The notes beneath the pieces are model-generated. The model worked only from the letters and a program-made list of their open reading frames with translations. It was not told where the DNA came from and did no database searches. From positions 124,001 to 188,000 of the forward strand of contig NZ_VTLB01000004.1 in assembly GCF_020514235.1 (NCBI RefSeq): 64,000 nt of DNA, in the 5' to 3' direction. Source of the DNA: Synechococcus sp. MU1617. Its GTDB lineage: Bacteria; Cyanobacteriota; Cyanobacteriia; PCC-6307; Cyanobiaceae. Positions 11,703-27,456 of this stretch are shown in pieces (within the stretch, counting starts at the first letter, position 1; each line of letters begins with the position of its first letter). A program made the position numbers and the translations under genes.

Positions 11703-14098
11703 CAGCCCTGTTTGGTGTCAGTGTCTTTGGGATAGATCTGAATCGTCACCTTGTCGATCTGACCGCCATAGGCGCTGTAACGACGAGGACCGATGGTCTT
11801 GATCGTGACCGCTGATCCACGGTCAAGACCGACGTCAGCACCTTCATCAATGGAGAAGCGCGATGCAATCGTCTTCTCCATGCGGCCCTCTGCGACCACC
11901 TCGCCGTTGAGTTTCAAGCGAACGTCAGCTCCTTTTCCAGTACCACCACCGTCGTAGTCGAGCTCGAAACGGATTTCTGACTTACCAGTTGGTAGTGGCT
12001 TGTTGCTTGTGAGCGTGAACAGCTCTCCCATGTAGTTGTACGTGTAGGAAGGTCTGTTGTTTTCAACGTAAAGAGACCAACCTCCAAATCGACCACCCTG
12101 GGAGAAAATCACACCATCTTCTTCGCCACCTTTCACATCAACAAATGCCGTCACACTGTTCGACACGTTCTTCACGTTGAGAATCGAGTCTTCAACCAGG
12201 TTCCAGGCATAGGGATACAAATCAATGGATGTCCGATCACCTAGAAGCGTCGGCCGACCTGCAACGGAAGGAACGAGACGCTCCAGAAGACGATCATCAA
12301 GGGGCAACACCTGATTTTCAATCGCCTCTTCCATGAACTTCTTCTTCATGGCCTCAAGGCGCTCAGGCTCCTGATCGGCGAGATTATTCGAAAGACTGAA
12401 ATCCTTGGTGGTGTCGTACAGCTCCCAACCATCATCTGCCGCAACCGTGTTCATTCTTTCGGGCGCCATCCAGGGATACATGATTGTCGCCCGCGCCATC
12501 CAGCCGTTGTGATAAATACCTCGGTTGCCGATGATCTCGAAATACTGCGTGTTGTGCTTTTCTTTGGCATCCGGGTTATCGAAGGTATACATCAGGCTGG
12601 TTCCTTGCATGGGAATCTGCGGGATGCCATTAATTGTCTTTGGCATCGGTAGATTGGCTGCCTCAAGGATCGTTGGAGCCACATCATTCACATGGGAGAA
12701 CTGTGTGCGTACACCACCACCTTTCTTGATGCGCTCAGGCCAATGAATCACTGTGCCATTGCGTGTTCCTCCAAAATCACCGGCGACTTGCTTGGAAAGC
12801 GCAAAAGGTGAATTGAAGGCGATTGCCCAAGCCATGTGATACATGGGATAGGTGGTTGGACCGCCCCATTCATCGAGCTTGGCCTCCTGTTCATCCGGCG
12901 TTTCTCCAACACCGTTGAGATAGTGGTTCCAGTTCCAATGACCAGTCCGATCCCCCTCAACACTGGCGCCGTTGTCACCAGTGATATAGATCACCAAGGT
13001 GTTATCAAGCTCACCTAGATCTTCAATCGCCTGAATCAAACGGCCTGCTTCATAATCGGAATGCTCCGTGAAAGCAGCAAACACCTCAGCCTGACGCGCA
13101 TAAATTTTCTGCTGCTGGGGAGTAAGGCTGTCCCATTTGGGAATACTGTCTGGCGCCTTGGCCATCTGAGTCCCTTCGGGGACGATGCCCGCCTTGATCT
13201 GGTTCTGAAGATTGCGTTCCCTAAGAACATCCCAACCTTCATCAAACTTGCCCTTGTATTTAGCAATCCATTCTTTGCCCACATGGTGTGGGGAGTGGGC
13301 ACCGGCCGAGGAGTAATAGATGAAAAATGGCTTATCAGGCTTGATCGCCTTCTGTTGCCGCATCCAACCGATCGCCTGATCGGTCATATCTTCGGTGAAG
13401 TGATACCGATCTTTCTTCGGTGCATCGACAACGGTGACACCATCGTGGATGGTGGGTTCCCACATGTTGTCTTCAGCGCCGACAAAGCCGTAGAACTTCT
13501 CAAAGCCCTGACGCGTTGGCCAACGGGTTTGAGGACCGGCTGCCGTGGTCTCACGGCCGGGAGTCTCATGCCACTTGCCGAAGGCGGCAGTGTTGTATCC
13601 ATTCAGTCGCAGGATTTCTGCAACTGGCACCGCATAATCAGGCACCACAGTTGAGTTGCCGGCATATCCAGTTGCAACTTCAGGGATAGATCCTGTATTG
13701 ACTTTGTGATGATTACGGCCAGATTTCAAGGCCGCCCGGGTTGGCGCACAAAGTGCAGTGGTATGAAATTTGTTGTAGCGAAGTCCGTTCTCGGCAAGTT
13801 TTTCAGCCGTCGGCATGTTCACCACACCGCCAAAGGCGGAGGGTGCTGCATAGCCCACATCATCAAGCAGGATGATCACCACATTGGGTGCATCGGCAGG
13901 TGCCGTCACCTCCCATTGGGGAGGCAATGGCACCTCTGACGGCAGTACCTTGGTAACCTTTTCAGGCCGTGGCTCAGCGATCGGCAGCTGCGTGCGATCA
14001 AACTGAGCGCTGTTAGCCTTATTTTGAAGCCCGAGTTGAGTTGAGCAGGCAGCAAGAACAAGGACGCCGCCTCCCAAAGCAATCTGACGGAGTTTCAT
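11702..14098 (-). CDS. Cys-type arylsulfatase lipoprotein
   Basis: A 798-residue type I sulfatase that hydrolyses sulfate esters. The N-terminus is a lipoprotein signal with lipobox LAAC (Cys18), so the enzyme is membrane-anchored outside the cytoplasm. Metal ligands start with the DD pair at 79-80 (NVVIILLDDVGY). The formylglycine motif is C-A-P-T-R at 117-121, the form that needs an FGE. A C-terminal beta domain (about 620-798) has Gly/Asp-rich strands typical of long bacterial arylsulfatases. The ATG at 14098 is chosen over 14113 because it begins directly at the signal peptide. The substrate is unknown. The FGE gene follows with a one-base overlap. Confidence 0.93.
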   Translation of the reverse strand: MKLRQIALGGGVLVLAACSTQLGLQNKANSAQFDRTQLPIAEPRPEKVTKVLPSEVPLPPQWEVTAPADAPNVVIILLDDVGYAAPSAFGGVVNMPTAEKLAENGLRYNKFHTTALCAPTRAALKSGRNHHKVNTGSIPEVATGYAGNSTVVPDYAVPVAEILRLNGYNTAAFGKWHETPGRETTAAGPQTRWPTRQGFEKFYGFVGAEDNMWEPTIHDGVTVVDAPKKDRYHFTEDMTDQAIGWMRQQKAIKPDKPFFIYYSSAGAHSPHHVGKEWIAKYKGKFDEGWDVLRERNLQNQIKAGIVPEGTQMAKAPDSIPKWDSLTPQQQKIYARQAEVFAAFTEHSDYEAGRLIQAIEDLGELDNTLVIYITGDNGASVEGDRTGHWNWNHYLNGVGETPDEQEAKLDEWGGPTTYPMYHMAWAIAFNSPFALSKQVAGDFGGTRNGTVIHWPERIKKGGGVRTQFSHVNDVAPTILEAANLPMPKTINGIPQIPMQGTSLMYTFDNPDAKEKHNTQYFEIIGNRGIYHNGWMARATIMYPWMAPERMNTVAADDGWELYDTTKDFSLSNNLADQEPERLEAMKKKFMEEAIENQVLPLDDRLLERLVPSVAGRPTLLGDRTSIDLYPYAWNLVEDSILNVKNVSNSVTAFVDVKGGEEDGVIFSQGGRFGGWSLYVENNRPSYTYNYMGELFTLTSNKPLPTGKSEIRFELDYDGGGTGKGADVRLKLNGEVVAEGRMEKTIASRFSIDEGADVGLDRGSAVTIKTIGPRRYSAYGGQIDKVTIQIYPKDTDTKQG

Positions 14099-14246
14099 GA
14101 ACTCAGGAATCAAATAGTCAACATATGAAGCCTAATCAGGATGAGACTCACGAACCAAAAATTTCACAAACAAACCAGAGAGAAATTTCGAAAAAGTTTT
14201 TTTCGTACCAACATCCATAATCGTTTTGGACTGTGGATCGGCAGTG

Positions 14247-15548
14247 TCATCCCTGAAGACTCTTGGCAATGCCCAATGCTGCTGAGGAACCGCTGGCGAT
14301 CGCTCCCTCAATAAAGCCGCGCCAAGCCTGGGCATGGTCTCCGGAGGCAAACACAAGATTGCCCTCCTGTTGAGGCAGGGCATTGGCAAACCTTGCGATC
14401 GTGCCGGGCCGATAGGTGCACCAGGATCCCTGGGACAAAGCATCGCCACCCCAGTCGTGGCCAAAGGTGGACAGCAGCTTGACGCCTGGAAGAAATTCTT
14501 CGAGAACGGCTTGCCATTCATCAACCGACTTGTCCAAAGCACCGGATTCGAGGCTGAATCCAGCCAGAACAGAGTGTTGTTCGCCGCGCTTGTAGGTGAA
14601 ACTGCCGATCAGGGGGGAATCCGTTGAACGCGACAGGGTCATCACCGCGCCGGGATCTCCCTGCACCTCAAAAAACACCTTGTAGCCACCACCAACATGC
14701 TTCAGCGTTGAGGCCTCCTGCTTCGCTGCAGACAATGGCGGATCAAAGCTGACGCTGTTGAGGAGATTCAACGGCAGCGTGACGACCGCACGCTTGGCAT
14801 TAACGACGTCGCCATTGGTTGTGGTGACCACAACCCCGGCCTCCGATTGCTGAACAGAAGCAACAGACGTATTCAGCTCAACATCGAAACCACCATCCTC
14901 AGCGATGGCATCAACCAGCTCACCCGTTCCATTGGTGAACTTGTAGCGGGCCGCGGTGTCATTGAAGATCTCGTAATTCCAACCGGTCAGCGACCAACAA
15001 CGCATCATCTCCACATAAGACGCGTTTTCGGGTTGGTTCATCGAGAGGATCTCGAGGAATCCGCCAATCGATGTGCGTTGCAGAGGGGTGAGATCCAAGG
15101 CGGCAAAGCGATCAGCAACGCTCTGCGAATCATGGGCACAGATCGCATCCCAACAGTGATCTTGGTCGTAAGGGCGCTCCCAAACTTGCTTGGCCTCCGC
15201 AAAGAACAGCTCAAAGCCCTGCAGAAATTCAGCGAGCTGGTCTTCCTGCAGGTCATTTACCTGCCCATCAACCTTGATGGCAACCCGCTCGGCAACACAA
15301 CCGGGAGTTTCCTGAACCTCCAAGCCGTAACGCTCCTTTTCCGCCCAAACAAAGGGTTGGGTCCAGTGAATCCAGGTTCCGCCCAGCTCCACATGGAAAC
15401 CATTCACCTCCTTGTACCAAGTGCGACCACCCAAGCGATCACGGGCCTCGAGCAGCAACACATTGAAGCCACGGTGTTTGAGATCACGGGCCGCGGTAAT
15501 CCCGGCGAAACCGCCACCGATCACAACAACATCAACAGTGCGAGACAT
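14247..15548 (-). CDS. FAD-dependent amine oxidase (MAO-like)
   Basis: A 433-residue flavin amine oxidase-family protein. The N-terminal dinucleotide site reads VVVIGGGFAGITAARDL, followed by LLLEARDRLGGRT, and the family's GGTWIHWTQPF block follows. Near the C-terminus ASGDHAQAWRGFIEGAIASG matches the MAO flavin-binding region. The substrate could be a mono-, di- or polyamine or an amino acid; sequence alone does not decide. No signal peptide is visible at the chosen ATG (15548), so it appears cytoplasmic, unlike its neighbours. It lies between the sulfatase and the DUF1254 genes, all on the same strand. Confidence 0.88.
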   Translation of the reverse strand: MSRTVDVVVIGGGFAGITAARDLKHRGFNVLLLEARDRLGGRTWYKEVNGFHVELGGTWIHWTQPFVWAEKERYGLEVQETPGCVAERVAIKVDGQVNDLQEDQLAEFLQGFELFFAEAKQVWERPYDQDHCWDAICAHDSQSVADRFAALDLTPLQRTSIGGFLEILSMNQPENASYVEMMRCWSLTGWNYEIFNDTAARYKFTNGTGELVDAIAEDGGFDVELNTSVASVQQSEAGVVVTTTNGDVVNAKRAVVTLPLNLLNSVSFDPPLSAAKQEASTLKHVGGGYKVFFEVQGDPGAVMTLSRSTDSPLIGSFTYKRGEQHSVLAGFSLESGALDKSVDEWQAVLEEFLPGVKLLSTFGHDWGGDALSQGSWCTYRPGTIARFANALPQQEGNLVFASGDHAQAWRGFIEGAIASGSSAALGIAKSLQG

Positions 15549-15631
15549 CGGACCAGAGGGAAAGGAGAACGGGACAAGCAACGACACCCATCGATGGATA
15601 GATACCCACCGATGGGATCAAGACAAAAGAA

Positions 15632-17185
15632 TCAGAGCTGTTCGATCGCACCGAGTTTCCAGGTGCGGTCAAACCACTCCTGACCTGGGCCATAGAGACG
15701 GAAGATGCCGAACCAACCCTTGCCGGGAACCGTCTTCACCCAGTTGGCCTCTTTGCCAGCAGGGGCTTCAGGGCCGAAGTAAAGATCAATGCTTCCGTCA
15801 GCATTTTTCGCCATCTCGGGATTGCGCTTGTTGTTTTTGCTGGGGTAGGGCATCTCCTTGCTCTGGAGCATGGAACGGGTCTGCGGGTCGTAGACCACGA
15901 ACGACCAGAAGCGCTGAGCCGGTGGATTGGCAGGGATGTTGACTTTGTAAGTCTTGGATCCATCCAGGTAGGCGCCGCTGCCATCACGCGAGCTGAAGGC
16001 GTATTGGGACCCCACGCCAGGAAGTTCCAGCACCATCGCCGGCGTGTTCACCGTGGCCAGGTAGAAGAACAGCGTGCGGCCATCCATGTCACGGCCACCA
16101 TTGCCGCCATCCACGAGGTACGTGTGGTTGCCGCCGGGGAAACCGGTCTGCCAATAGCCGGCCTTGCCGGGATAGATGTATGCCTTGGGATCCTGCGGGG
16201 CAAACAGAATCGAACGTGCCGTCGCATTGCCAATGGCGACCGCTTCAGTCAGCAGGGCTTTCTGCTCCCTGGTCGGATTGAACGGCTTCCCTTTTTGAAT
16301 GCCAATCGCCGAGGCCATGCCCAAGAGTTCAGGGGAGAACATCTCGGAGGGCTCACGCTGGATCACCTCATCCAGTTCCTCGTAGAACTTGAAGTTGTTG
16401 GCATGGATGGTGTTCACATCTGACCCGGTGAGGTTGGTGAACGTGTTTGCAGGAGGGTTGCTCCTTTGAGCGAAGGGATACACCTTGAGGCCATTTTTAA
16501 ATGCCGTCTTCGCCGTATCAGGCTTGCCTTGGTCATCAAGAAAGCCGCGAAGAATCAGCCAGTTGATTTTGCTGGGAGTCGTCGCAATGAAGTAACCATC
16601 GGTGTTGGCCGGTGGCGTGTGGCCTGGGCCAAGAATCAGATACTTGCCGCCTTTGCCTTTGTCTGGGCCAGGGCCACCCATGTCGACAACAAAGCGGAAA
16701 AAGGCGTCATTAACGGTGCCCGGCCCTGTTCCCGCAGGAACTTCCACCACCACAGGGCCATCACTGAGATCAAGAAAAGCCGAGGCATAGACCGTATCGG
16801 TATTGCCGGTTAGCCAGAGCGATGTGGAGCTCATCAACTCCTCAAACAAACCGATATCTCGATTTGGCTTCAAGCCATAGCCATCGCGGTGGCCGACATA
16901 GAGCATCTCGATGGATGCTGCCGGCATGAAATTGAGGAAGGTCTGCACACCACGGCCGAGATCCACTTGACGGCGCGCTGCCTTTTTTGTGGCTTCATCA
17001 GGGAAGCCATCGAAATAGCGGAACGTGCCGATGCGGGTACGAACAACATCAGGCGTTAAGACATCTTCAGGGATCGGCGTGTTGTAACCCTTGGGAGTGA
17101 CATCCTTCGCTTGAACTGGAAATGCAGAGCTTCCGATCAAGAGAGTGGAAGCCAAGAGAGCTGAAACAGAATTAAGGCCTTTCAT
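15632..17185 (-). CDS. Secreted DUF1254/DUF1214 protein, paralogue A
   Basis: A 517-residue protein with a signal peptide (cleavage after PVQA, about residue 26), then an N-terminal DUF1254 domain and a C-terminal DUF1214 domain. Landmarks are ASIEMLYVGHRDGYGL, LTGNTDTVYASAFLDLSDG, GPGPDKGKGGKYLILGPG and the C-terminal FWSFVVYDPQTRSML. The function of the family is not established. It is closely similar to the next gene upstream (17227-18777), sharing YNTPIPEDVLTPD-type N-termini and GKYLILGP blocks, so the two arose by tandem duplication. Expected in the periplasm or outside the cell. Confidence 0.9.
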   Translation of the reverse strand: MKGLNSVSALLASTLLIGSSAFPVQAKDVTPKGYNTPIPEDVLTPDVVRTRIGTFRYFDGFPDEATKKAARRQVDLGRGVQTFLNFMPAASIEMLYVGHRDGYGLKPNRDIGLFEELMSSTSLWLTGNTDTVYASAFLDLSDGPVVVEVPAGTGPGTVNDAFFRFVVDMGGPGPDKGKGGKYLILGPGHTPPANTDGYFIATTPSKINWLILRGFLDDQGKPDTAKTAFKNGLKVYPFAQRSNPPANTFTNLTGSDVNTIHANNFKFYEELDEVIQREPSEMFSPELLGMASAIGIQKGKPFNPTREQKALLTEAVAIGNATARSILFAPQDPKAYIYPGKAGYWQTGFPGGNHTYLVDGGNGGRDMDGRTLFFYLATVNTPAMVLELPGVGSQYAFSSRDGSGAYLDGSKTYKVNIPANPPAQRFWSFVVYDPQTRSMLQSKEMPYPSKNNKRNPEMAKNADGSIDLYFGPEAPAGKEANWVKTVPGKGWFGIFRLYGPGQEWFDRTWKLGAIEQL

Positions 17186-17226
17186 GACAAATCAATGAAT
17201 AAAAGTGGAAGTCGTGAATTGTTCGG

Positions 17227-18777
17227 TCAATCAAGCACTTCGATATTGTTCAGCTTCCAGGTTTGGTCAAACCAGGGTTGCAATGGGCCATAGAGCCGAA
17301 AGGCCGTGAACCACCCTTTCCCAGGTACCGTTTCAATCCAATTGGTTTCCTTGCCCAAAGGTGCTTTGGGTCCGAAATACAAATCCACGGACCCATCTGC
17401 ATTCATAACCATGTCTTTGTTGCGCTTGTTGTTCTTGGCAGGGAAGGGCTGACTGGTTTGCAGCTGAGAACGCGTTTGTGGGTCATAAACCACGATTGAC
17501 CAGAAATCCTTAGCAGGTGGATTCTTATCAATGGTTAATTTGTATGTTTTACCACCATCAAGAACAGCACCATTTTCATCCGTCCCAGCAATCGCATATT
17601 GAGAGCCGACGCCAACCATTTCCAGCACCATGGCCGGAGTGTTGACGGTGTAAGCCCAGAAGAAGTTGTTACGGGCGTCAAGATTTCGACCTCCCCGGCC
17701 ACCATCTTTGAGCCACTCATAACTTCCACCCGCGAAGGCTGTGAACCATTGGGGATTACCTTCATAGGTGTATGCATCTGAAGCACGGGGGGTAACCATG
17801 TCGGAGCGGACATACGCCACACCCACCTGAACAGCTTCCTCCATCAAGGCTCGATCAGCCGGTGAGGGGTTAAAAGGTTTTCCTTTTTCCATCCCGATCC
17901 CAGCTGCCAAACCGCGAATTTCCGGATCAAGGAAATCGATGGGCTCCCGCTGAATCACACGATTGAGTTCGTTGAAGAATTCAAAGTTGTTGGCATGCAC
18001 AGTATTAAAAACCTTGTCCCCACCTTGGATGAAGGTCATCTTGGGTGGGTTGTCTTTTTGCGACAGCGGATACATCCGCAAACCATTCTCGTAGTTCGCA
18101 ACTGCCTGGTCAGGCTTACCCTCATCATCCAGGAAGGCCCTCAAAATCAACCAGTTGGAATACGTGGGTGAGCGGAAAACAAAGTAGCCATCGGTGTTTG
18201 CAGGCTCTTTATCGTCAGGACCAAGAATCAAATATTTACCACCCTTGCCTTTGTCCGGACCGGGACCTCCTGTATCAGCCACAAATCGAAAGTAGGCATC
18301 ATTGATCGTGCCAGGTCCAAGACCAGCAGGCACCTCAATCACCAACGGCCCCGTCCGCTGCAAGTTGAAAAAAGCCGAGCCATAAACGGTATCTGTATTA
18401 CCGGTTAAAAACAGGGGATTGGAATTCAACGGTGACATCAAATTCACCTTGGTGTAATCATCCACACCGATCTGTTCATGACCGTGCCGCAGCATTTCTA
18501 TGCTCGCCGCAGGCATCATCGTCAGGAAGGTCTCGTAAGCCCGGATGAATTTGAGATTGTCGAAAGTCGCCTTCACCGTGGCCGGATCGGGCATACCATC
18601 GAAGAAATTGAAGGTGCCAACAGACGTGCGCACCTTGTCTGGTGTGAGCAGCTCTGATGGGATCGGAGTGGTGTATCCGGCTGGGATGGCATCAGCCCCT
18701 GCTTGCGCTCTGGTGGGCAAACCAAACAAAACACCTGACAGGGCAAGAAGGGACAGCCCCTTAGAGGCACCCTTCAT
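17227..18777 (-). CDS. Secreted DUF1254/DUF1214 protein, paralogue B
   Basis: A 516-residue tandem paralogue of the gene at 15632-17185, with the same DUF1254 then DUF1214 order (LTGNTDTVYGSAFFNL, GGPGPDKGKGGKYLILGP, FWSIVVYDPQTRSQL). The signal peptide begins MKGASKGLSLLALSG, parallel to the MKGLNSVSALLAS start of paralogue A, which is why the ATG at 18777 is preferred. An in-frame ATG at 18795 would add six residues. The 41-base gap to paralogue A suggests one transcript. Base composition looks more A+T-rich than the flanking housekeeping genes. Function unknown. Confidence 0.9.
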   Translation of the reverse strand: MKGASKGLSLLALSGVLFGLPTRAQAGADAIPAGYTTPIPSELLTPDKVRTSVGTFNFFDGMPDPATVKATFDNLKFIRAYETFLTMMPAASIEMLRHGHEQIGVDDYTKVNLMSPLNSNPLFLTGNTDTVYGSAFFNLQRTGPLVIEVPAGLGPGTINDAYFRFVADTGGPGPDKGKGGKYLILGPDDKEPANTDGYFVFRSPTYSNWLILRAFLDDEGKPDQAVANYENGLRMYPLSQKDNPPKMTFIQGGDKVFNTVHANNFEFFNELNRVIQREPIDFLDPEIRGLAAGIGMEKGKPFNPSPADRALMEEAVQVGVAYVRSDMVTPRASDAYTYEGNPQWFTAFAGGSYEWLKDGGRGGRNLDARNNFFWAYTVNTPAMVLEMVGVGSQYAIAGTDENGAVLDGGKTYKLTIDKNPPAKDFWSIVVYDPQTRSQLQTSQPFPAKNNKRNKDMVMNADGSVDLYFGPKAPLGKETNWIETVPGKGWFTAFRLYGPLQPWFDQTWKLNNIEVLD

Positions 18778-18971
18778 CCACGTTGCGCTCACCATGAGAT
18801 GCAATCGACAGCTTTTTCAAGCTAGATAGCAAAAAGCGATCGGTCAGCGGTCGATGGTACGAAAAAGCCTTGATTTACCAGCAAAGGGAAAGATGGCTTG
18901 CATGAGCTTGAAAACCCACGCAAGCCAAGCCCAAAGGGCATTCAATCCCATTAAGGATCAATCACGGAGAC

Positions 18972-20114
18972 TCATTTGAGCTCCAACTCAGGCCGAACCC
19001 ACGAACCATCGAAATAAGCGGGTTTTGGATTGTAGATCCGGAAGGTGGCATTCCAGCCCGGGTAAATCTCCAAATAGTTGGGTTGTGTAGTATCACCACC
19101 AAAATGCAGCGTCACATCACCTTGTGCGTCTGCCTCGGCAAATGCACTATTCACATTGAAATTCTCACCAACCGGGAATCCATCCTTGTCGTACACCGTT
19201 AGCGACCAAAAAGCATTATCTCCATTCGGAACATCATTAAGCTTCAGCGTTTGAGGCTCAGATGATGATGGCGTGTAGAAGAGATAAACAGCACCTTCCT
19301 TCGGTAATCCGCCAATTCCAACAGCCACACCCATATTATTTTGCTCCGGGGTGACTTCACCGGGCCGACCAAAGAGCGATTCCGACTTCACACCTTTCTC
19401 GTTTCGCTCTTCGTTATAAGCCGCACGGAGAGCCATCATCTGCTCAAGATCCCATTGGTTGGGTTGCACATACTCGCCTGTCTTAGCCTGAGTAACCGAC
19501 AACTTGGCCTGCAGAGCCTGGGCCTGTGCTACATCATCAGGATCCTGAATGTTCACACCGGTACGGAATGCTACTAAGGCATAGCGGCTCCCGACCTCGT
19601 CTTCTGTAAGGGTGTAATCACCAGGCTCTTTTTCCACATACACGTACCCCTGTCCATTAACCACCATGGCGCTCTGGTAGCGGCCATTGGTTTGCGGAAG
19701 CGTAAATGTCGCCGGAGTGGTCAGATCGAGAATCAACCAGGAATATAAGGTGTCAAAATTAATGCGAATCACCGTCCGATCCTTGGGATCCGCAGCCTTC
19801 TGGAGATTCAAAATCGTTCCCAAACCTCCGGTGCAGGTTGCAGCTGAAACATCGGCGATGTATTTGGCAAAGATCGTCTGCGTTTCAGCTTCGGAATAGT
19901 TTTCCTTGGTAACTGGCACAACTGTGTCGCTTTGAATTGAAACAGCAGGCTTAGGGCAATCCTTTTTTGCTGTGCCTACTGAAGCAGGAGCCTGCTCAGG
20001 ATTGGCAGTCGACGAAGGCTGATCCGAAGAACTTTTGGGCTGGCCGCAGGCAACGGTTAAGACACCCAAACCAAGAGCGAGAGCACCAGTGATAGCTTTC
20101 TTTTGAAAAGACAT
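18972..20114 (-). CDS. DUF1254/DUF1214 lipoprotein, paralogue C
   Basis: A 380-residue lipoprotein: hydrophobic leader then LTVACGQPK, with the lipidated Cys at about residue 23. A Ser/Pro/Gln-rich linker follows, then shorter versions of the DUF1254 (INFDTLYSWLILDL) and DUF1214 (AFWSLTVYDKDGFPVGENF) regions. The C-terminus YLEIYPGWNATFRIYNP is shared with paralogue D. It is about 140 residues shorter than the secreted pair A/B and forms its own subfamily with D. Function unknown. Confidence 0.88.
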   Translation of the reverse strand: MSFQKKAITGALALGLGVLTVACGQPKSSSDQPSSTANPEQAPASVGTAKKDCPKPAVSIQSDTVVPVTKENYSEAETQTIFAKYIADVSAATCTGGLGTILNLQKAADPKDRTVIRINFDTLYSWLILDLTTPATFTLPQTNGRYQSAMVVNGQGYVYVEKEPGDYTLTEDEVGSRYALVAFRTGVNIQDPDDVAQAQALQAKLSVTQAKTGEYVQPNQWDLEQMMALRAAYNEERNEKGVKSESLFGRPGEVTPEQNNMGVAVGIGGLPKEGAVYLFYTPSSSEPQTLKLNDVPNGDNAFWSLTVYDKDGFPVGENFNVNSAFAEADAQGDVTLHFGGDTTQPNYLEIYPGWNATFRIYNPKPAYFDGSWVRPELELK

Positions 20115-20169
20115 GATTAAGGGTAGTAATTAGATGAAATTAAAAAAGAGAAGGAAATAATGATTTAAT

Positions 20170-21291
20170 TCATTTTGCGGGCTCAAACTGTGGTGCAGTC
20201 CACGTGCCGTTGAAATATGCTTCTGTTGGTGAATAGATCCGCACCGCGACATTCCAACCAGGATAGATATCGAGGTAGTTGTCCTGACTCTTGTCACCTC
20301 CGAGGTGCATTACATACTCACCTTTATCATTTTTCTTCGCGAAAGCACTATTTACATTGTACTTTTCGCCCACTGCAAAACCATCCTTGTCATAGACAGT
20401 GACTGACCAGAATGCCCTTGGGTCATTGGGAACATCCTTCAGCACCAACACGTGAGGCTCAGTGGAATCGACAATTGTGGGGAAGGGATACACAGCCCCC
20501 TGCTTGGGAAGGCCACCCCAGCCCAAAGCAACACCGAAATCACGCATCTCATCTGAAATCTCACCCTTTTTGCCAAAGACCATTTCGGAGGTCAAACCCT
20601 CGGGTTGCATCCGCTTCTGGTAGCCAGCCCGAATAGCAAGAATTTCATCCATGTCGTACTTATTTTTGCTGACAAACTCACCGGCTTTATCCTGAACCAG
20701 CGCAATTTTCCCTTGGATCTCTGCCGCCTCCTTAAGATCAGCAGGGTCCTGCATATTCACTTGAGTGCGCACAATCACGTACGCATATCGACTTCCAACA
20801 CTCTCCCTGCTGAGTTGGTAGCGACCGGGCTTATCGCTAACGAGTGGGATCCAATGATCCTCGTCGATCACTTCAAGAATCTGATATCGATCCGTTTCAG
20901 GCAGAACCACTGTGGCTGGACTCTCAAGGTCGAGAATCGCAAAGGAATAAAGAGTGTCGAAATTTGGGCGCAGGATCGTGCGCTCTTTGGGATCCATCGC
21001 TGCACGCTGGTGCAGGAAAACACCGACGCCATCACCGCACGTGCCCTTGGCGATCTTGCGAACGTAATCAGCAAAGATCACTTCCGTTTCAGCATTAGCG
21101 TAATTCGCCTTGGTGACAGGCGTCACCTCAGTCGCCTTGCTCACGACCGCAGGACTTGGACATTCGGCAGCTGAGGATGTCGCCTGATCGGGATCAGACT
21201 GGCCAATTGTGGATTGCGTCTGACCACAACCAACAGCACCAAAAACCAATGCAGAAGCGAGAACTAACGACTTAAATGAAGAACGAGTCAT
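20170..21291 (-). CDS. DUF1254/DUF1214 lipoprotein, paralogue D
   Basis: A 373-residue lipoprotein paralogue of C, with lipobox FGAVGC (Cys about 22). The core blocks recur: RPNFDTLYSFAILDLESP, GGLPKQGAVYPFP, FWSVTVYDKDGFAVGE and NYLDIYPGWNVAVRIY. It lies 55 bases upstream of C on the same strand, and the gap is strongly A+T-rich. Together C and D are a second tandem duplication next to A and B. Anchoring by lipid and proximity to an outer-membrane gene suggest an envelope role; the biochemistry is unknown. Confidence 0.88.
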   Translation of the reverse strand: MTRSSFKSLVLASALVFGAVGCGQTQSTIGQSDPDQATSSAAECPSPAVVSKATEVTPVTKANYANAETEVIFADYVRKIAKGTCGDGVGVFLHQRAAMDPKERTILRPNFDTLYSFAILDLESPATVVLPETDRYQILEVIDEDHWIPLVSDKPGRYQLSRESVGSRYAYVIVRTQVNMQDPADLKEAAEIQGKIALVQDKAGEFVSKNKYDMDEILAIRAGYQKRMQPEGLTSEMVFGKKGEISDEMRDFGVALGWGGLPKQGAVYPFPTIVDSTEPHVLVLKDVPNDPRAFWSVTVYDKDGFAVGEKYNVNSAFAKKNDKGEYVMHLGGDKSQDNYLDIYPGWNVAVRIYSPTEAYFNGTWTAPQFEPAK

Positions 21292-21443
21292 GAAACTTGA
21301 ATTAAAAAATCAATGAAGCGAAGAACTTTCTAGCGATTGCTGTAGCCAATGACTTGAACCAAAACAAATCCTAGGCACGTAGTTAAATTTTTAGAAAAGA
21401 ATAAACCGCAAATTCGCCCTAGGTCCAGATAAATATGTCAAGA

Positions 21444-22487
21444 CTATTTCTTGCCAGCCGAGGGGATTAGGAACTGAACCTGCGTACGAATTGTCCAGTC
21501 ACCCATCAGCTCTTCTCCACCAATTTCTGGCTTAATTGCATTGTAATAGCCATGAACTGAGACATTGATTGGCTGCTTTCCAAGCGTAAAGACTCGGCCA
21601 ATTCCAGCACCGACTGGAACAGTCCAGCCTTGATCCTTATTCTCCCAATCAGCTGTAATGATTGGTGAAAATGACACGTACCAACCCTTAGGCAGATTGT
21701 AGTTAATGAAGGGTTGGACCAACATTTTATTCACATCCTTTCGGTCATCTTCACCTGCGAAAGACCACATGTTGTTCACCAAACCGCCCACAACCCAGGG
21801 GCCCTTGGTATAAACACCAACGAGTGCAGGACCGACAGACCACTTTCCGGTGCTCAGCGGGATCTTATTGGAAGGAATACTGAGGGTCGGGCCGAAACCA
21901 AAGGTGAAATCACCCTCCAGGGTGGGCACGAAAAAACCGGTGGGATTGACATCACCAACACCAAACGTGTATTTCTCCCTCCAGCCATCAAAGTAAGGTT
22001 CACCTGCTGGGGTGAGGTTAAACTTTGGCTTAGCGAATGGTGCATTAATGAAAGGAACAATGGTGCGCGTCACCAGCGTCCAGTCATCACTCAATTTGAA
22101 CGGAAAAACAGGTTGAACGTTGACCACATTCATGACCCTGTCATGCTTGGCATCGGGGTCAACCGAATTCGGTGCCCATTGAGTCCCGGGAGTGGCATTC
22201 CATTGGAAGGGAATGCTGATCATGCTGGCGATGGGATTTTGTGCCGCTTTGGCCAGAGCGGCTTGGTCCGGGCCAGCAGCCTCTGCCGCAACAACACCAG
22301 GTGCCTTGTCTTCGGACGCAATGAGCTGGGCCTGAGCGATCTCGGCTTGCTCAGGCTCCGTCAGAGGGCTGTAATCAAAACCGCCTGACTCAGCCTTGAT
22401 CTCGTTGACCTCTTGCGCCACCACGCCAGTGCCAGCAAAAGCTGTAAACGCAACCACGCCCAACAGAAGTCGACGAAACACTGGCAA
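21444..22487 (-). CDS. Outer-membrane protein of the MetA-phenol / neuromedin U-like family
   Basis: A 347-residue exported protein. A signal peptide ends near VVAQ (residue 25). A spacer rich in Ala, Glu and Gln (25-80) precedes a barrel-like domain with alternating strands (SIPFQWNATPG, VNVQPVFPFKLSDDW, GGLVNNMWSFAGEDD). It resembles proteins annotated as transporters of the MetA-pathway/neuromedin U type, which are predicted outer-membrane barrels without proven substrates. It is the first gene of the minus-strand run that continues through four DUF1254 genes, so an outer-membrane route for the cluster's substrate is a reasonable inference. Confidence 0.78.
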   Translation of the reverse strand: MPVFRRLLLGVVAFTAFAGTGVVAQEVNEIKAESGGFDYSPLTEPEQAEIAQAQLIASEDKAPGVVAAEAAGPDQAALAKAAQNPIASMISIPFQWNATPGTQWAPNSVDPDAKHDRVMNVVNVQPVFPFKLSDDWTLVTRTIVPFINAPFAKPKFNLTPAGEPYFDGWREKYTFGVGDVNPTGFFVPTLEGDFTFGFGPTLSIPSNKIPLSTGKWSVGPALVGVYTKGPWVVGGLVNNMWSFAGEDDRKDVNKMLVQPFINYNLPKGWYVSFSPIITADWENKDQGWTVPVGAGIGRVFTLGKQPINVSVHGYYNAIKPEIGGEELMGDWTIRTQVQFLIPSAGKK

Positions 22488-22721
22488 TCACCAAAATCAA
22501 TTCATCTTGACGGGCTGAAAAATCAGGGTGGTACAAATCGATCGGTTATCTCGAGACTCGACAAGAGAATTGCCGGCCGAACCTTTTCAGTTGGGCAGCG
22601 GCCTGTCGTCATTGAAGATCAGTCCGACGGGACCGACATGCGCCCATCCGTACGTGATCGGGTTCGAAGCAGGGCAGAGATCTCCCTCTCTCCCTAGACA
22701 GAGAAAAACGTATCGACGTCC
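22488..22721. promoter_or_regulatory. Divergent control region of the envelope cluster
   Basis: 234 bases with no gene, the longest gap in the window, between the outer-membrane gene (minus) and the beta-propeller gene (plus). Promoters for both directions are expected here. I saw no convincing operator repeat or terminator in it. Confidence 0.45.
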
Positions 22722-24731
22722 ATGAAGGTCTTCAAAACGCTTGGACAGGTCCTCGCCCTTAGTGCACTGGCTGTTGGGACAGCAACAGGGTCTGTCGAAG
22801 CCCGAGGGCAATCAACATTAAAAGGGCAGATCTCCTTGAAGGGTCAGCCGGTGAGCGGCTCATCCATCACCCTCTGGCAAACCCAAGCTGGGCAATCCCC
22901 CAAACAACTGAGCACCCATCGTTCGAACAAAAGCGGGGCGTTCAGCGTCAAGGTTCGAGCAACGCAAGGGGTCGTCCACTACCTCGTGGCCAAGGGGGGC
23001 GACATCGGCGGATCCAGCGCCGACCAACTCACCATGCTCACGGTGCTTGGCGGGGATGAGCATCAGCAGGTGGCCATCAACGAGCTCACAACCGTTGGTT
23101 CGGTTTGGCCCAATGCTCAACTGATTGAAGGCACAGCGTTGGAAGGGAGCCAAAGCGCCTTAGCAATCGGATCGAGCCAAGTGGAAAACCTGGTTGACCA
23201 GAGCACAGGTCGCTTTGGAGCAACGTTGCTGAAAAGCACCAACCTGCTGAATTCCGAGACTGCAGCTCGAATGAATGTGCTCTCAGATCTGATTGCATTA
23301 TGCGGGCAACCCCAGCAGTCTCAAGCGTGCTATCAGCTGCTAGCACTGACAAATTCAGAGAACACACTCTCGGCAATGACGTCCATTGCCCGTCAACCCT
23401 GGAAGAACGCCGGCGCGCTCTATCAGCTGTTCCAAAGCGCATACCCGATCAACAAAGCCTCACAGCTGCGCCCAACTGCAACCGCTCCCTATTTGTTGTT
23501 TCAACCCAAAAGTTTTTCACTTTCCCTGGTTTTTAACGGTGGCGGTGCTTTAGGCCTCGGGAAGTTGATGTTTGACGGAAAAGGAAGCATGTGGAGTGGA
23601 ACCAACTGGATGCCTGGCTCTCAATCCGGAGTGGTAAACAACATCGGCGGAGGCGTGACCCACTTCGGCCCCGGTGGCACGCCTCTTTCACCAGCGATTA
23701 GCGGTTACAACGGCCAAGGCATCAACGGTGTGGGCTGGGGGACCGGAGTATCAGAAAAATATGCTTGGGTTGGCGCGTTCAACAACATGGTTGGGGTGTT
23801 CGACCTCAAAGACAGCAAAGCCCTTGGGCCAGCCACCATTGATAAGGAAGTGGGTCAGCTTCAGGGCGTCGCCACAGCCGCCAATGGAGATGTATGGATT
23901 GCCGACAACACCGCAAACCACATGATTCATTTCCCCGGTGGCGATTACACCCAAGGGAAACGAATCACAATTAATGACCTCCAAGCACCCTTCGGTGTCG
24001 CCATTGACGGACAGAACAGAGTGTGGGTGAGCAGCAGTTACAACAACAAACTCACCGTGTTTCCAGGGGACGCTCCTGATCAAGCCAAAACGATCGAAGT
24101 GAACCTTGGGGGCCGTGGTGTTGCGGTTGATTCAACAGGGCATGTATGGATTGCCCAGCAATCCAATTCTCCTCAAGGAGCACTACCTCCAGGCGCGAAA
24201 ATGCCTCCCAATATCCCTGCCAATGCACCACAACCCAAAACCATCATGGAGGAGTTTGAGGCCGGTGCTGAATACCTTTTGACCAACCCCAACATCACGC
24301 AAACTGGAATGGTTGGGCTGATTTCACCCGACATGGAAGTCGTCCAACAAGACATCGCCAAAGGCACCGCTTATATCCCCTGGGGTGTGACCATCGACGG
24401 CAATGACAACGTCTGGGTCGGCAATCTTTATGGTCAAAGCTTGACTCACATCTGTGGCGTCAATCCCGCCAATTGCCCCGCAGGAAAAACCACTGGGGAT
24501 GTGATTCACAACTACCAAAGCGGCGTTATTCAAATGACCACCGATGTCATTGTTGATGACGCTGGAAACCTCTGGAGCGCCAATAACTGGTTCGACGGTG
24601 ATGTCGTCATTAACCCCACCTACAGGGGCCGCACCTCCACATTTGGAGGGGGCCAGGGATTCGTTGTGACTTATGGCGTGGCCGGACCGGTTCAAAACCC
24701 CCTGATGGGTCCTGTGCGCAAGCCACGCTGA
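22722..24731 (+). CDS. Secreted beta-propeller protein (NHL/Vgb-like) with N-terminal carboxypeptidase-regulatory-like domain
   Basis: A 669-residue exported protein. The signal peptide ends near VEA (residue 27). Residues 30-120 look like a small beta-sandwich of the carboxypeptidase-regulatory type (LKGQISLKGQPVSGSSITLW). From about residue 270 repeated blocks follow the pattern G-V-A-x-x-x-x-G-x-V-W-I/V: GVATAANGDVWIADN, GVAIDGQNRVWVSSS, GVAVDSTGHVWIAQQ, GVTIDGNDNVWVGN and IVDDAGNLWSANN. These are propeller blades as in NHL or virginiamycin-B-lyase-type proteins. No catalytic residues can be assigned. It is divergent from the DUF1254 run and precedes the second barrel gene on the same strand. 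Confidence 0.82.
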   Translation: MKVFKTLGQVLALSALAVGTATGSVEARGQSTLKGQISLKGQPVSGSSITLWQTQAGQSPKQLSTHRSNKSGAFSVKVRATQGVVHYLVAKGGDIGGSSADQLTMLTVLGGDEHQQVAINELTTVGSVWPNAQLIEGTALEGSQSALAIGSSQVENLVDQSTGRFGATLLKSTNLLNSETAARMNVLSDLIALCGQPQQSQACYQLLALTNSENTLSAMTSIARQPWKNAGALYQLFQSAYPINKASQLRPTATAPYLLFQPKSFSLSLVFNGGGALGLGKLMFDGKGSMWSGTNWMPGSQSGVVNNIGGGVTHFGPGGTPLSPAISGYNGQGINGVGWGTGVSEKYAWVGAFNNMVGVFDLKDSKALGPATIDKEVGQLQGVATAANGDVWIADNTANHMIHFPGGDYTQGKRITINDLQAPFGVAIDGQNRVWVSSSYNNKLTVFPGDAPDQAKTIEVNLGGRGVAVDSTGHVWIAQQSNSPQGALPPGAKMPPNIPANAPQPKTIMEEFEAGAEYLLTNPNITQTGMVGLISPDMEVVQQDIAKGTAYIPWGVTIDGNDNVWVGNLYGQSLTHICGVNPANCPAGKTTGDVIHNYQSGVIQMTTDVIVDDAGNLWSANNWFDGDVVINPTYRGRTSTFGGGQGFVVTYGVAGPVQNPLMGPVRKPR

Positions 24732-24777
24732 TGGCTTCGTTGTTCTCGATCTCCTGATTCTTCCGCTCCAAAGCCCG

Positions 24778-25698
24778 ATGCGTCTCAACCGCCTGCTTGG
24801 CCTCGCCACGGCCTGTTTGCTCGCTCCGCTTGCACTGCCGTCAGCCGCAGAAGAAGTGCCTGACGAGGATGGCAACACCCGGGTGTATCTGGAGGCCTAC
24901 GGGTTCTTCCCGCTGGAAACCCACTCCAAAACCACGCTGGACAACAACACCACCAAGGAAACGCTGGATCTCAGCGATGTGCTGGACATGCTCACCGGTG
25001 TGTTCAGCGGCAAGGTGGCTGTTGAGAAAGGGCGGTTTGGCCTGCAAGCAGGGCTGGACCATCTCAGCTTCAGCACATCCGAGACGGTCTCGTCCTGGAA
25101 CAGCTCGAACCCGATTCAGAACGAACGCCACCCGCACTTCCCGCAGCGCCGGGTCACCTCCAAGGGAACGATCAAGTCGGTCACCGACAGCGAGCAAACC
25201 ATTTTTGATCTGGCCCTGCGCTACCGAGCCGGTGAGATTCAAAAACCACGGATGACGCCTGGTTCGGTGAGCTTCATTGGCTTTGCAGGGATGCGATTGA
25301 TCGACGCCTCACTGGACATGGACGTGTCGTTCAAAGACGACGTCACCGTCGAGGGAATCCTGCCCTCAAGGCAACTTCAGCGCGACATTGCCGATGAAGC
25401 CAGTGAGACATGGCACAACACATGGGTGCAGCCCCTCATCGGCATGAACACCACCCTTGCTCTGGGCGAAGACTGGCAAGCCTTCCTCGGCATGGATGCT
25501 GGTGGTTTTGGGATCAATGGCAAACAGGACCTGTCGGGAACCGTCGAGGCGGGTGTGGCCTATGCCCTGGGCAATTCAGCTCAGATTTCCCTGGCCTATC
25601 GCTACTTCGGCATCGACTACTCCGCCCACAACGGACGGAACGGCTACTCCTCCACACAACACGGTGTTTCGATGGGATTTCGCTGGTTGTTTGAATGA
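24778..25698 (+). CDS. Outer-membrane beta-barrel-like protein, paralogue 2
   Basis: A 306-residue exported protein with a signal peptide ending near PSAA (residue 24) and a barrel-like domain ending MGFRWLFE. It is clearly paralogous to the gene at 9402-10391. Matching blocks are YLEAYGFFPLE, LALRYRAGEIQKPRM, VSFIGFAGMRLIDAS, TWVQPLIGMNTTLAL, GGFGINGKQDLSG and AYALGNSAQISLAYRYFGI. It follows the propeller gene by 46 bases on the same strand. Together the two paralogues bracket the sulfatase/DUF1254 cluster. Confidence 0.82.
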   Translation: MRLNRLLGLATACLLAPLALPSAAEEVPDEDGNTRVYLEAYGFFPLETHSKTTLDNNTTKETLDLSDVLDMLTGVFSGKVAVEKGRFGLQAGLDHLSFSTSETVSSWNSSNPIQNERHPHFPQRRVTSKGTIKSVTDSEQTIFDLALRYRAGEIQKPRMTPGSVSFIGFAGMRLIDASLDMDVSFKDDVTVEGILPSRQLQRDIADEASETWHNTWVQPLIGMNTTLALGEDWQAFLGMDAGGFGINGKQDLSGTVEAGVAYALGNSAQISLAYRYFGIDYSAHNGRNGYSSTQHGVSMGFRWLFE

Positions 25699-25724
25699 GC
25701 CTTCAACCAGAGAGACCTGAGGGT

Positions 25725-26336
25725 CTATCCACTCACTGGGCTTAACGGGCTTTTGGGTTTGATGTGGCCAACCCAGCGAATCACTAGGAGAACCAGGGTG
25801 AACACAAGAAAAGGTGCATAGAAATCAGCTGGCCCTTTCTTCACATGGCTCACATACGTGAGGGCGAATTCTGCCCATATCCAATAGGAGCCAATCACGT
25901 GCAGTCGCTTCCAATGCTTCATGCCCATCCATCGTTGGGCCGCATTCGTCGACGTGAGGGCCATCAAGGCAATCAACAGATACGCCATACCGCCAACCAG
26001 CCACTTCCCTGCGGGCTGCTCACTCAGGAATGGATCAGGGAAATCCAGAGACATCGCAAGGATCAAGGCCAAGTGAATCCCGTGGGACGACGCAAAACTC
26101 AGCCCGATCCAGCGCCTGTTTTGCAGCATCCACTGGCTCAGGGATGACGGCCAGAGGCGTTGCACACTCGAAGCCACGAAGGCCATCGAAAAGAGAGCCA
26201 GGGAGCTTCGCCCCGTGGCATCGATGCCTGCCGCAACTGACGTCGACGTCCATCCAGACACGCCGAAATGCAGCGCAAGGCCCGCCAGAATCGCGAACGT
26301 CACCGAGGCCGTCAGTCGCCAGCCAAGACGAGCCAT
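25725..26336 (-). CDS. Ferric-reductase-like transmembrane protein
   Basis: A 203-residue integral membrane protein with about six hydrophobic segments and no soluble flavin or NADPH domain. Paired histidines are placed as possible haem ligands: SSHGIHLALILAM in one helix, and HWKRLHVIGSYWIW then YVSHVKKG further on. This fits the ferric-reductase-like/MsrQ-type membrane domain. The ATG at 26336 is supported by AGGGGAG five bases upstream. The partner for electron transfer is not visible in the window. It is convergent with the second barrel gene. Confidence 0.78.
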   Translation of the reverse strand: MARLGWRLTASVTFAILAGLALHFGVSGWTSTSVAAGIDATGRSSLALFSMAFVASSVQRLWPSSLSQWMLQNRRWIGLSFASSHGIHLALILAMSLDFPDPFLSEQPAGKWLVGGMAYLLIALMALTSTNAAQRWMGMKHWKRLHVIGSYWIWAEFALTYVSHVKKGPADFYAPFLVFTLVLLVIRWVGHIKPKSPLSPVSG

Positions 26337-26448
26337 CGACACTCCCCTAAATCTCTTTTTTAAACACGCTGTTCAGCCTTGCCAACAGGGCATTGAACAA
26401 CCATCGAAGGCCATGAGGGCAGAGCGTCGTTGGCTTTTGCTGCGCCGA

Positions 26449-27456
26449 TCAGAACTGCTCAAGGAAGCGCAGATCGCTGGTGTAGAGCCGGCGAATGTCG
26501 TCAATGCCATGGCGCACCATGCAGAACCGCTCCACCCCCAGGCCTGCGGCAAAACCGCTGTAACGCTCGGGATCGAGGCCCAGCCCTTCCAGTACAGCGG
26601 GATCGACCATGCCGCAGCCCATCACCTCCAGCCAGCGGCCGCGCCACTGCACATCCACCTCGGCTGAGGGCTCAGTGAAGGGGAAGTAGCTGGCCCGGAA
26701 GCGAACCGGCAAGTCGCCGAAGAAGGCCTTTAGGAAGGCCATCACCGTGCCGCGCAGGTGGCTGAAATCCAGTCCCTCATCAATGGCCAGCACCTCCACC
26801 TGGTGGAAAACCGGCGAATGGGTGGCATCGACGGCATCGCGGCGATAAACCCGACCGGGAGCCACGATCCGCACCGGCGGAGGGTTGTCTTCCAGATGGC
26901 GGATCTGCACCGGCGAAGTGTGGGTCCGCATCAGCAGGTCACCCCCGAGATAGAAGGTGTCCTGCATGTCCCGGGCCGGATGGTCCTCGGGGATGTTCAA
27001 GGCGGTGAAGTTGTAGTGGTCCCGCTCCACTTCAGGCCCCTCGGCCACGCTGTAGCCGAGGCCCAGGAACAGATCGACGATCTCTTCTGTGGTGGTGATC
27101 AGGGGATGGCGATGCCCCATCGGCACCCCAGAAGCCGGAGCGGTGACATCCAGACTTTCCTTGGCAATGCGCTCCGCCATGGCCGCCTGCTTCACGGCCT
27201 GTAGCCGCTCTCCCAGCAGCGACTGCACTTGCGTTTTCAGCACATTGGCGCGCTGGCCCACCAGAGGACGCTCCTGACCGGGCAACTTGCCCATGGCTCC
27301 CAGCACACCGGAGATGCGGCCCTTCTTGCCCAGCAGCCCGACCCGCAGTTGCTCGAGCGCAGCGGCATCGGCTGCCTCGGCGATCTCAGCCGCGGCCTGC
27401 TGCTCGAGGGCATCGAGTTGATCGGTGAGCTGCTGCAGGGTGACCGGTGCGCTCAC
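26449..27456 (-). CDS. pheS: Phenylalanyl-tRNA synthetase alpha subunit
   Basis: A 335-residue alpha subunit that charges tRNA-Phe together with PheT (not in this window). It has an N-terminal coiled-coil arm (about 1-85). The class II catalytic core carries [31 protein letters not shown] and motif 3 [20 protein letters not shown]. The length is normal for the family. The start is GTG (SAPVTLQQL). It marks the return to conserved housekeeping genes after the accessory block. Confidence 0.97.

Follow-up and report, generated by a model that had tools for sequence, protein, structure and literature searches.

The four DUF1254/DUF1214 genes described here (A–D) sit on an accessory island, and the function best supported for it is, tentatively, the processing of sulfate esters in the cell envelope. 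We favor this reading because orthologues of the neighboring sulfatase, its activator and an amine oxidase were found, among the matches listed, only in genomes that carry A and B, because linkage to DUF1254 genes recurs elsewhere, and because the active sites are kept. Its observed basis comprises the genes present, their active-site motifs and export-type N-termini, their co-occurrence, a recurrent neighborhood and the boundaries of the island; the substrate, the order of steps, the topology and any catalytic role of the DUF1254 proteins we infer. The window is the whole stretch of DNA analyzed: 64,000 nucleotides of Synechococcus sp. MU1617 (GCF_020514235.1, NZ_VTLB01000004.1, positions 124,001–188,000 of the forward strand). 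In window coordinates the features are:

9233–26448, no strand: the island, i.e. the nadK–pheS interval (empty site in relatives and GC drop)
9402–10391, plus: OMa, predicted barrel-like outer-membrane protein (ORF; the ATG at 9402 is the chosen start)
10453–10845, plus: h10420, small conserved protein (relatives in L007, L039, L041 and L044)
10842–11702, minus: FGE, formylglycine-generating enzyme, aerobic-type, sulfatase activator (PF03781, 6.5e-74)
11702–14113, minus: SULF, exported S1 sulfatase, predicted lipoprotein in the window strain (PF00884, 2.3e-55)
14247–15587, minus: AO, cytoplasmic-type flavin amine oxidase (PF01593, 2.7e-53; PDB amine oxidase, 9e-91)
15632–17185, minus: A, long exported DUF1254/DUF1214 protein, 517 aa (Pfam; tree clade of 14 rows)
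17227–18804, minus: B, long exported DUF1254/DUF1214 protein, 525 aa (Pfam; tree; 58% identity to A)
18894–18927, minus: terminator-like hairpin of 15 pairs in the C–B gap (terminator/hairpin scan)
18972–20114, minus: C, short exported DUF1254/DUF1214 protein, 380 aa (Pfam; tree; lipobox-like TVAC in the window strain)
20170–21291, minus: D, short exported DUF1254/DUF1214 protein, 373 aa (Pfam; tree; lipobox-like AVGC in the window strain)
21444–22487, minus: OM, barrel-like outer-membrane protein, 347 aa (ORF; remote link to Phenol_MetA_deg)
22722–24731, plus: NHL-repeat protein, exported-type (divergent from OM; adjoins nadK in several relatives)
24778–25698, plus: OMb, paralogue of OMa (several genomes have relatives within the block)
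25725–26342, minus: MsrQ-like haem membrane protein (Ferric_reduct, 7.6e-9; MsrQ model, 42 of 130 bits, below the family cut-off)

An initial annotation had singled out 15632–22487. This range does hold five ORFs on the minus strand (A–D and OM), but the same-strand unit runs on through AO, SULF and FGE. The nadK–pheS interval is a genomic island of about 17 kb with a clean empty site and a deviant composition: it is present or absent among relatives, nadK adjoins pheS in all four island-less relatives read, and GC lies between 0.496 and 0.556 in segments wholly inside it, against 0.599–0.648 in those wholly outside. The duplicated genes, first pictured as retained in a compact genome, are better described as members of an island that is cleanly missing from some relatives. 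Pfam scans of the block proteins gave no integrase, and no significant family for h10420; there is no tRNA gene in window positions 1–40000, and repeats of at least 18 bp are absent from 9000–27000. OMa (taken as 9417–10391) and OMb share 41% identity.

All four of A–D pass the Pfam thresholds of both PF06863 and PF06742, and the tree separates long A/B from short C/D, as the initial annotation had proposed. D and C are 50% identical, and the long-form and short-form profiles align with an hhalign probability of 99.3. D (N110–Y115) and A (N128–Y133) have in common an N-x-D-T-x-Y segment, a candidate binding site. The proposed two rounds of duplication give way to a different history: on the phylogeny of the paralogues, the best reading is that one duplication produced A/B and another C/D, both probably predating the genomes compared, and that the long/short split is far deeper. 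Tandems of long and short DUF1254 genes also occur in Proteobacteria, and matches to DUF1254/DUF1214 extend over Cyanobacteria, Proteobacteria, Planctomycetota, Streptomyces, Rhodococcus, haloarchaea and Listeria plasmids. Scanned against viruses, D, B and OM had no relatives. N-termini of A–D carry export-type signals. That the short forms are lipoproteins agrees with the lipobox-like motifs of C and D in the window but is not general: with a loose pattern and mechanically set ORF starts, the motif appears in three of eight C orthologues and three of nine D orthologues (the window's included), as well as in seven of 13 A orthologues, the window's A not among them. C and D are thus predicted lipoproteins in some strains only.

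The long forms are related across nearly their whole length to VPA0735 of Vibrio parahaemolyticus (3vb9, 2p3y), which the PDB labels uncharacterized: B matches 3vb9 at a phmmer E of 1.7e-67, and the long-form profile matches VPA0735 at 9.9e-112. PMC2744874 sets VPA0735 apart as its own fold, 'VPA0735-like'. The best phmmer match of D in the PDB has an E of 0.048, while the short-form profile finds VPA0106 (5.9e-11) and VPA0735 (4e-7, over its last 88 positions); an AlphaFold2 model of D from five sequences was poor (mean pLDDT 44.4). Our literature search found no function for DUF1254/DUF1214, no paper joining DUF1254 with Synechococcus and none joining GrrA, GrrM and cyanobacteria. In published data sets Caulobacter CC_2518, labelled phosphatidylserine decarboxylase, is down-regulated in an iron/Fur comparison, Bradyrhizobium bll2664 appears in nnrR-mutant data, and Listeria lmo1241 is up with garvicin KS; the passages on these three DUF1254 genes make no mention of sulfatases.

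SULF matches arylsulfatases in the PDB at 7.1e-53, and PF00884, the formylglycine motif and the metal-site residues together mark it as a predicted cysteine-type S1 sulfatase. The motif (C-x-P-x-R, here CAPTR) is present in six of six orthologues aligned; around it the active-site residues DD, K-x-H, H and DN are conserved as well. The C-terminal part of the 803-aa protein lies outside the matches to PDB arylsulfatases. FGE matches solved formylglycine-generating enzymes at 3.3e-65; with PF03781 and an active-site cysteine pair, found in all ten orthologues checked, it has the signature expected of the aerobic (SUMF1) type. Two of the six sulfatase orthologues have A at a position that a narrower motif pattern restricts to S or T; CAPTR is present in them too.

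A survey of 201 Cyanobiaceae genomes bore out that the arrangement recurs: A and B occur together in 12 of them, all with an OM match. Since A and B recur with an OM match in Cyanobiaceae, and OM–DUF1254 in R. johnstonii and Pantoea, the arrangement is not peculiar to this genome; absence of the order elsewhere would have told against the initial annotation. SULF orthologues were found in nine of the 12 A/B genomes and AO orthologues in seven, with none in the other 189; FGE orthologues were found in at least 11 of the 12 and, among the matches listed, in none of the 189 (at most 8 AO, 5 SULF and 12 FGE candidates were scored per genome, full orthologues being expected to rank first). Fisher tests within g1+g34 only, with at least 10 non-A/B genomes counted among the matches listed, gave P values of 0.003 (SULF), 0.0001 (FGE) and 0.003 (AO). 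Two findings count against a common module: a SULF orthologue lies within 15 kb of A/B in seven of the 12 genomes, and in G156 and G169 the contig with the SULF and FGE orthologues is not the one with A/B.

Linkage extends beyond the block. Using all 143 DUF1254 rows, and omitting rows that were fragments of one gene in the SULF, FGE and OM lists, unlisted FGE rows and control rows that were fragmentary or below cut-off, at least 26 of 84 DUF1254 loci lie no more than 10 kb from a match to SULF or FGE (2.3 expected). Outside the 12 A/B genomes the figure is at least 15 of 66 (1.9 expected); the remaining 51, among the matches listed, lack such a match and count against the module. An OM match lies within 5 kb of 12 of the 84 loci (0.30 expected) and of four of the 66 (0.17 expected). 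For the control family PF00144 the counts over the 84 loci are 0 at 5 kb (0.42 expected), 1 at 10 kb (0.80) and 2 at 15 kb (1.19), and outside the A/B genomes 1 of 66 within 10 kb (0.7 expected). P values for these linkages treat loci as independent, which those of related genomes are not, and islands collect accessory genes. In PLSDB, whose annotation is incomplete, plasmids with a sulfatase close to DUF1254 come from Rhizobium rhizogenes (at 1.8 kb), R. johnstonii (at about 6 kb) and a planctomycete (where the two adjoin). The four loci of the first selection were picked for adjacent long and short matches and are thus biased; of 11 picked later by host genus, one has a sulfatase beside DUF1254 and one a related phosphodiesterase, which weighs against the module.

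If sulfate esters are indeed processed, cytoplasmic FGE would convert the CAPTR cysteine of SULF to formylglycine, and SULF would be exported and, in the window strain, probably anchored as a lipoprotein. Substrate or product may cross the outer membrane through the OM barrel, and the exported A–D could bind the substrate or the desulfated product, or convert either one further; where a strain has AO, this cytoplasmic enzyme would take a desulfated amine further. An envelope function, as suggested earlier, fits both the export signals and the linkage to SULF and FGE.

A somewhat unlikely alternative is that the DUF1254 genes and SULF/FGE are independent cargo of one variable site, with unrelated functions. 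The nadK–pheS site is, after all, a presence/absence locus, and the order of genes in the block is reshuffled between genomes; G089 carries A–D and OM without SULF, FGE or AO (which also counts against the module), and G141, G029 and G071 keep A/B with SULF/FGE but have no C/D in the block. Against independent cargo stand a link that recurs elsewhere with other DUF1254 subfamilies (the 15 or more of 66 loci above), an accessory control family that stays unlinked, and an adjacency of OM and DUF1254 that recurs in one alpha- and one gammaproteobacterium.

It is less probable still that OM and the DUF1254 proteins form a self-contained envelope unit, binding or transporting hydrophobic or aromatic compounds, with the sulfatase optional – a proposal close to the original one. 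OM matches accompany A/B in 12 of 12 genomes, G089 included; homologues of OM are found just upstream of DUF1254 genes, at 29 bp in Rhizobium johnstonii and 41 bp in Pantoea, and outer-membrane proteins of other families lie within 3.3 kb of DUF1254 on three other plasmids. For the description of OM as MetA-like there is a remote link in the family, which favors this proposal: two of 12 members match Phenol_MetA_deg (PF13557; best 6.9e-6), but the window's OM has no Pfam match up to E 10. Its hhalign probability against one MetA protein is 6.5, its single PDB match is 4rl8 (E 0.58), and an AlphaFold2 model from two sequences was poor (mean pLDDT 36.1). Matches to OM also occur outside the A/B genomes (G194 at 70%, others lower). 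Against a self-contained unit, the 9 kb on each side of L060 and L062, two of four OM homologues examined from Proteobacteria, contain no DUF1254, and FGE is nearly as constant in the block as OM.

Intergenic gaps measure 152 bp (OM–D), 55 bp (D–C), 167 bp (C–B), 41 bp (B–A) and 44 bp (A–AO). The C–B gap contains the 15-pair hairpin, whose tail is rich in T, and in 10 of 10 short-to-long gaps checked there is a hairpin of -17 to -30 kcal/mol, although longer gaps score higher by chance. Similar hairpins occur in other gaps (A–AO, -17.5; OM–C of G004, -23.2; OM–D of G147, -20.3), and terminator-like sites over the region show no excess over shuffles (16 found, mean 14.2). The C–B hairpin thus argues weakly against one operon. 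Of the OM-headed tandem first described, the shared strand and the position of OM upstream of D stand, while a single OM-led operon is made doubtful by the hairpin and gap sizes. That the four duplicated genes are expressed as one unit under OM is very unlikely: the OM–D–C–B–A series shares a strand and the D–C and B–A gaps are short and hairpin-free, but the hairpins between short and long genes, if suggestive only, speak for separation, and in G123 the long pair comes before the short one, while the block of G141, G029 and G071 has no short pair.

Returning to sulfate-ester processing, passages of PMC9298688 report that vesicles of MIT9313 carry the sulfatase PMT_1515 and show sulfatase activity, and that intact cells do not. 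G071 is probably MIT9313; its single SULF match, at 1604419–1606761, lies beside A/B, and PMT_1515 is plausibly this gene. Counting against the module, PMC9361551 reports that the S1 sulfatase cluster CK_00006730, which may correspond to SULF, is absent from marine picocyanobacteria. The parts of PMC5839243 and PMC7029141 consulted have no bearing on the island sulfatase, and the main text of PMC10119275 contains neither 'sulfatase' nor DUF1254. A bolder version, which we consider doubtful, is that formylglycine sulfatases have dedicated partners in the DUF1254/DUF1214 proteins of the island clade, which would be exported as enzymes or as carriers of sulfated metabolites and leave picocyanobacteria together with the sulfatase on outer-membrane vesicles. 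Were it true, picocyanobacteria would gain a surface sulfate-processing activity and a widespread family its first function. With a DUF1254 clade tied to a sulfatase and its activator, surface sulfate removal is the most testable functional idea, and an island present or absent in close relatives offers a concrete assay along with natural knock-outs. What picocyanobacteria would gain from processing sulfate esters is a fair question, sulfur not being scarce if the host is, as presumed, marine.

Polysaccharide utilization loci are defined by a SusC/SusD pair plus a glycoside hydrolase or lyase, with sulfatases. Like them, the island would act on sulfated material at the cell surface, close to an outer-membrane protein; it was rejected as such a locus, there being no SusC, SusD or glycoside hydrolase/lyase among the block proteins scanned with Pfam. 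In Klebsiella an arylsulfatase gene is linked to an amine oxidase (tyramine oxidase), with an anaerobic-type maturase; we know of no DUF1254 in that system. Rhizobial DUF1254 loci (R. johnstonii, R. rhizogenes, S. meliloti pSymA) have long+short or long+long tandems as in the island, with an OM homologue upstream in R. johnstonii and an arylsulfatase in the stretch of two; they differ in their neighbors (a DUF900 hydrolase, DUF2092, adenylate cyclase) and in having no FGE match in the stretches. Aerobic pairs of S1 arylsulfatase and FGE (1hdh, which SULF matches at 1.6e-50) likewise place a cysteine-type sulfatase beside FGE; unlike them, SULF shares its island with genes for DUF1254 proteins and OM.

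The positions that the initial annotation had assigned to the long DUF1254/DUF1214 genes A and B, the short forms C and D, and the outer-membrane-type gene upstream of D (OM) were borne out by ORF calls, and both domains score above cut-off in each of A-D. The genome (G000, Cyanobiaceae) comprises 2,323,049 bases in 10 contigs, the window being G000:C4:124001-188000; of the named relatives found, the MAG Synechococcus sp. MED650 is the closest (98-99% identity across A-D). The block lies in an island with the following borders:

8312-9232, nadK, left border
26449-27456, pheS, right border

GC content in 3-kb windows (within 1-45000) is 0.496-0.556 wholly inside nadK-pheS versus 0.599-0.648 wholly outside. 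Seven same-genus genomes in the sample are without A/B: nadK was found in five, and in all four whose surroundings were read (G131, G174, G112, G162) it directly adjoins pheS. The same nadK and pheS flank the block in G004, G089 and G147, and in G141, G123, G156 and G169 no more than 4 kb separates it from nadK; neither gene occurs within the fetched stretch around the block in G075, G101, G029 and G071. Searches found no tRNA in window 1-40000 and no repeats of 18 bp or longer in 9000-27000.

Other genes of the island include two barrel-like paralogues near its ends (OMa, 9402-10391, and OMb, 24778-25698; 41% identical), with OMb relatives inside the block in several related genomes. An exported-type NHL-repeat protein (22722-24731), divergent from OM, adjoins nadK in several relatives and is thus possibly part of the island core. 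At the island edge is an MsrQ-like haem membrane protein (25725-26342; score below the family cut-off), with no recognised partner in the block. Elsewhere in the genome are an OM paralogue (C2:144862, 52% identity) and, outside the island, a fifth DUF1254 gene (C3:74020, locus L054), a distant short form 26% identical to D.

The same-strand unit continues 3' of A with a flavin amine oxidase (AO, 44 bp from A), a formylglycine sulfatase (SULF) and a formylglycine-generating enzyme (FGE), the FGE and SULF reading frames overlapping by one base. SULF carries the CAPTR motif and neighbouring metal-site residues, and a lipobox is present in three of six orthologues, the window's own among them. The cysteine pair of true FGEs is found in 10 of 10 FGE orthologues, and the window FGE matches a solved FGE at 3.3e-65. 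For AO, the match to a bacterial amine oxidase is at 9e-91; its nearest relatives are probably enzymes of nicotine pathways.

Across 201 Cyanobiaceae genomes, 52 of which have DUF1254, B orthologues (at least 69% identity) occur in exactly 12, spanning three genera (G000, G004, G089, G147, G075, G101, G123, G141, G156, G169, G029, G071), and A accompanies B in every one. SULF orthologues (at least 67%) are present in 9 of the 12 versus 0 of the 189 others, where the best sulfatase reaches 50%; FGE orthologues (at least 75%) in 11 versus 0, among the matches listed; and AO (E 1e-60 or better) in 7 versus 0. Fisher P values (SULF 2e-13, FGE 3e-17, AO 3e-10) ignore kinship of the genomes. All 12 have an OM match. 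SULF, FGE and AO are all absent from G089; G123 and G075 have FGE and a sulfatase at only 39%; G156 and G169 carry their SULF and FGE orthologues on a different contig, the sulfatase close to A/B being a 39% match.

Grouping of 143 DUF1254 matches gave 84 loci, 66 of them outside the 12 A/B genomes. Within 10 kb, SULF matches occur at 20 of the 84 (1.4 expected) and FGE matches at 20 (0.9 expected, among the matches listed); for the 66 outside loci the counts are 12 for SULF (1.2 expected), 11 for FGE (0.7 expected) and 15 for either (1.9 expected), again among the matches listed. An OM match is no more than 5 kb away at 12 of the 84 loci (0.30 expected) and at 4 of the 66 (0.17 expected). Against a single control, PF00144 (found in 56 of the 201 genomes), the association is conspicuous: the control family is near 0, 1 and 2 of the 84 loci at 5, 10 and 15 kb (expected 0.42, 0.80, 1.19). 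The sulfatase/FGE link is not general: 51 of the 66 outside loci are without it.

The observed gene content, gene order, motifs, export-type N-termini, island and co-occurrence suggest a module that handles a sulfate ester in the cell envelope. Judging by their families, FGE would act in the cytoplasm, ahead of sulfatase export, and the sulfatase in the periplasm or at the cell surface. OM would provide the port, the DUF1254 proteins would bind or convert the compound in its sulfated or desulfated form, and AO may perform a later, strain-specific step. Should the host be marine, the module is unlikely to serve sulfur supply; carbon, nitrogen, detoxification and surface remodelling are candidate purposes.

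A tree of 84 proteins, built by a quick method, rooted at the midpoint and subject to a long-branch warning, has A and B clades of 14 rows each (support 100), and C and D clades of 8 and 9 (support 99 each). Both splits are older than the genomes under comparison. A single A/B duplication would be the simplest reading, the fork of A, B and a Sinorhizobium meliloti pair being left unresolved by the tree. The separation of long from short forms is far deeper than either split, and the short forms fall into one group (28 rows, support 99) with short forms from Proteobacteria and Natrinema. C and D are missing from the block in G141, G029 and G071, where A/B are kept; D is missing in G004, and C in G101, G156 and G169; in G123 the long pair precedes the short. 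Long and short pairs thus act as modular units. All 10 short-to-long gaps checked contain hairpins, as do some other gaps (raw counts regardless of gap length); a terminator scan gave no excess overall (16 sites versus 14.2 in shuffles).

G071 is probably Prochlorococcus MIT9313: its 38 Nif11-type leader matches are consistent with the 29 procA genes of that strain (PMC9298688). Sulfatase PMT_1515 is among proteins detected only in MIT9313 vesicles, and vesicles, not intact cells, show sulfatase activity; the authors hold that chance explains the entry of most proteins into vesicles (PMC9298688). G071 has a single SULF match (1604419-1606761, 68% identity). With a total of about 2,275 genes, gene 1515 would be expected at that position. 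The 2830 annotated proteins tabulated in PMC9298688 would instead place PMT_1515 near 1.29 Mb. Identity of PMT_1515 with this SULF gene is plausible, and the sulfate-ester reading barely rests on it. That DUF1254 proteins of the A-D clade are dedicated sulfatase partners shed on vesicles seems unlikely, slightly more so in view of the 2830-protein count. Between FGE and B, G071 (L048 3886-6770) carries GrrP (TIGR04262), GrrA (TIGR04260) and GrrM (TIGR04261), each above cut-off, which together make up a cyclophane RiPP system. At the equivalent place in G029 there is a GrrM match; 5 of the 84 loci have GrrM within 10 kb (0.69 expected), a mild enrichment, and in the window genome it is on another contig than the island.

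Twenty plasmid DUF1254 loci were read (L059, L061, L063-L068, L071, L073-L083; L075 is from Synechococcus elongatus). Long and short forms are in tandem in L063, L064, L065, L066 and L079, the first four having been selected for this. An OM-family gene is directly upstream of DUF1254 in two of the 20, by 29 bp in L066 (R. johnstonii) and 41 bp in L078 (Pantoea; E 7.7e-47). A sulfatase lies within the stretch in three of the 20 (L063, L066, L077), a phosphodiesterase in L076 matches sulfatases more weakly, and among diversity-picked loci the count is 1 of 11. L060 and L062, found via the OM protein, have no DUF1254 within the stretch. On S. meliloti pSymA, the first of two tandem DUF1254 proteins is the top plasmid match to B (56% identical). 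This tandem (L059, L061) stands directly before a cbb3 oxidase cluster, with a DUF2092 protein nearby and, in L059, an adenylate cyclase. An alpha/beta hydrolase of the DUF900 type is a repeated neighbour of rhizobial DUF1254 or arylsulfatase genes (L059, L060, L061, L063, L066, L080). Candidate DUF1254-like stretches also occur in four unannotated Listeria phage records (OR847259, OR848596, OR848136, OR846720), at 22-33% identity to B (tblastn).
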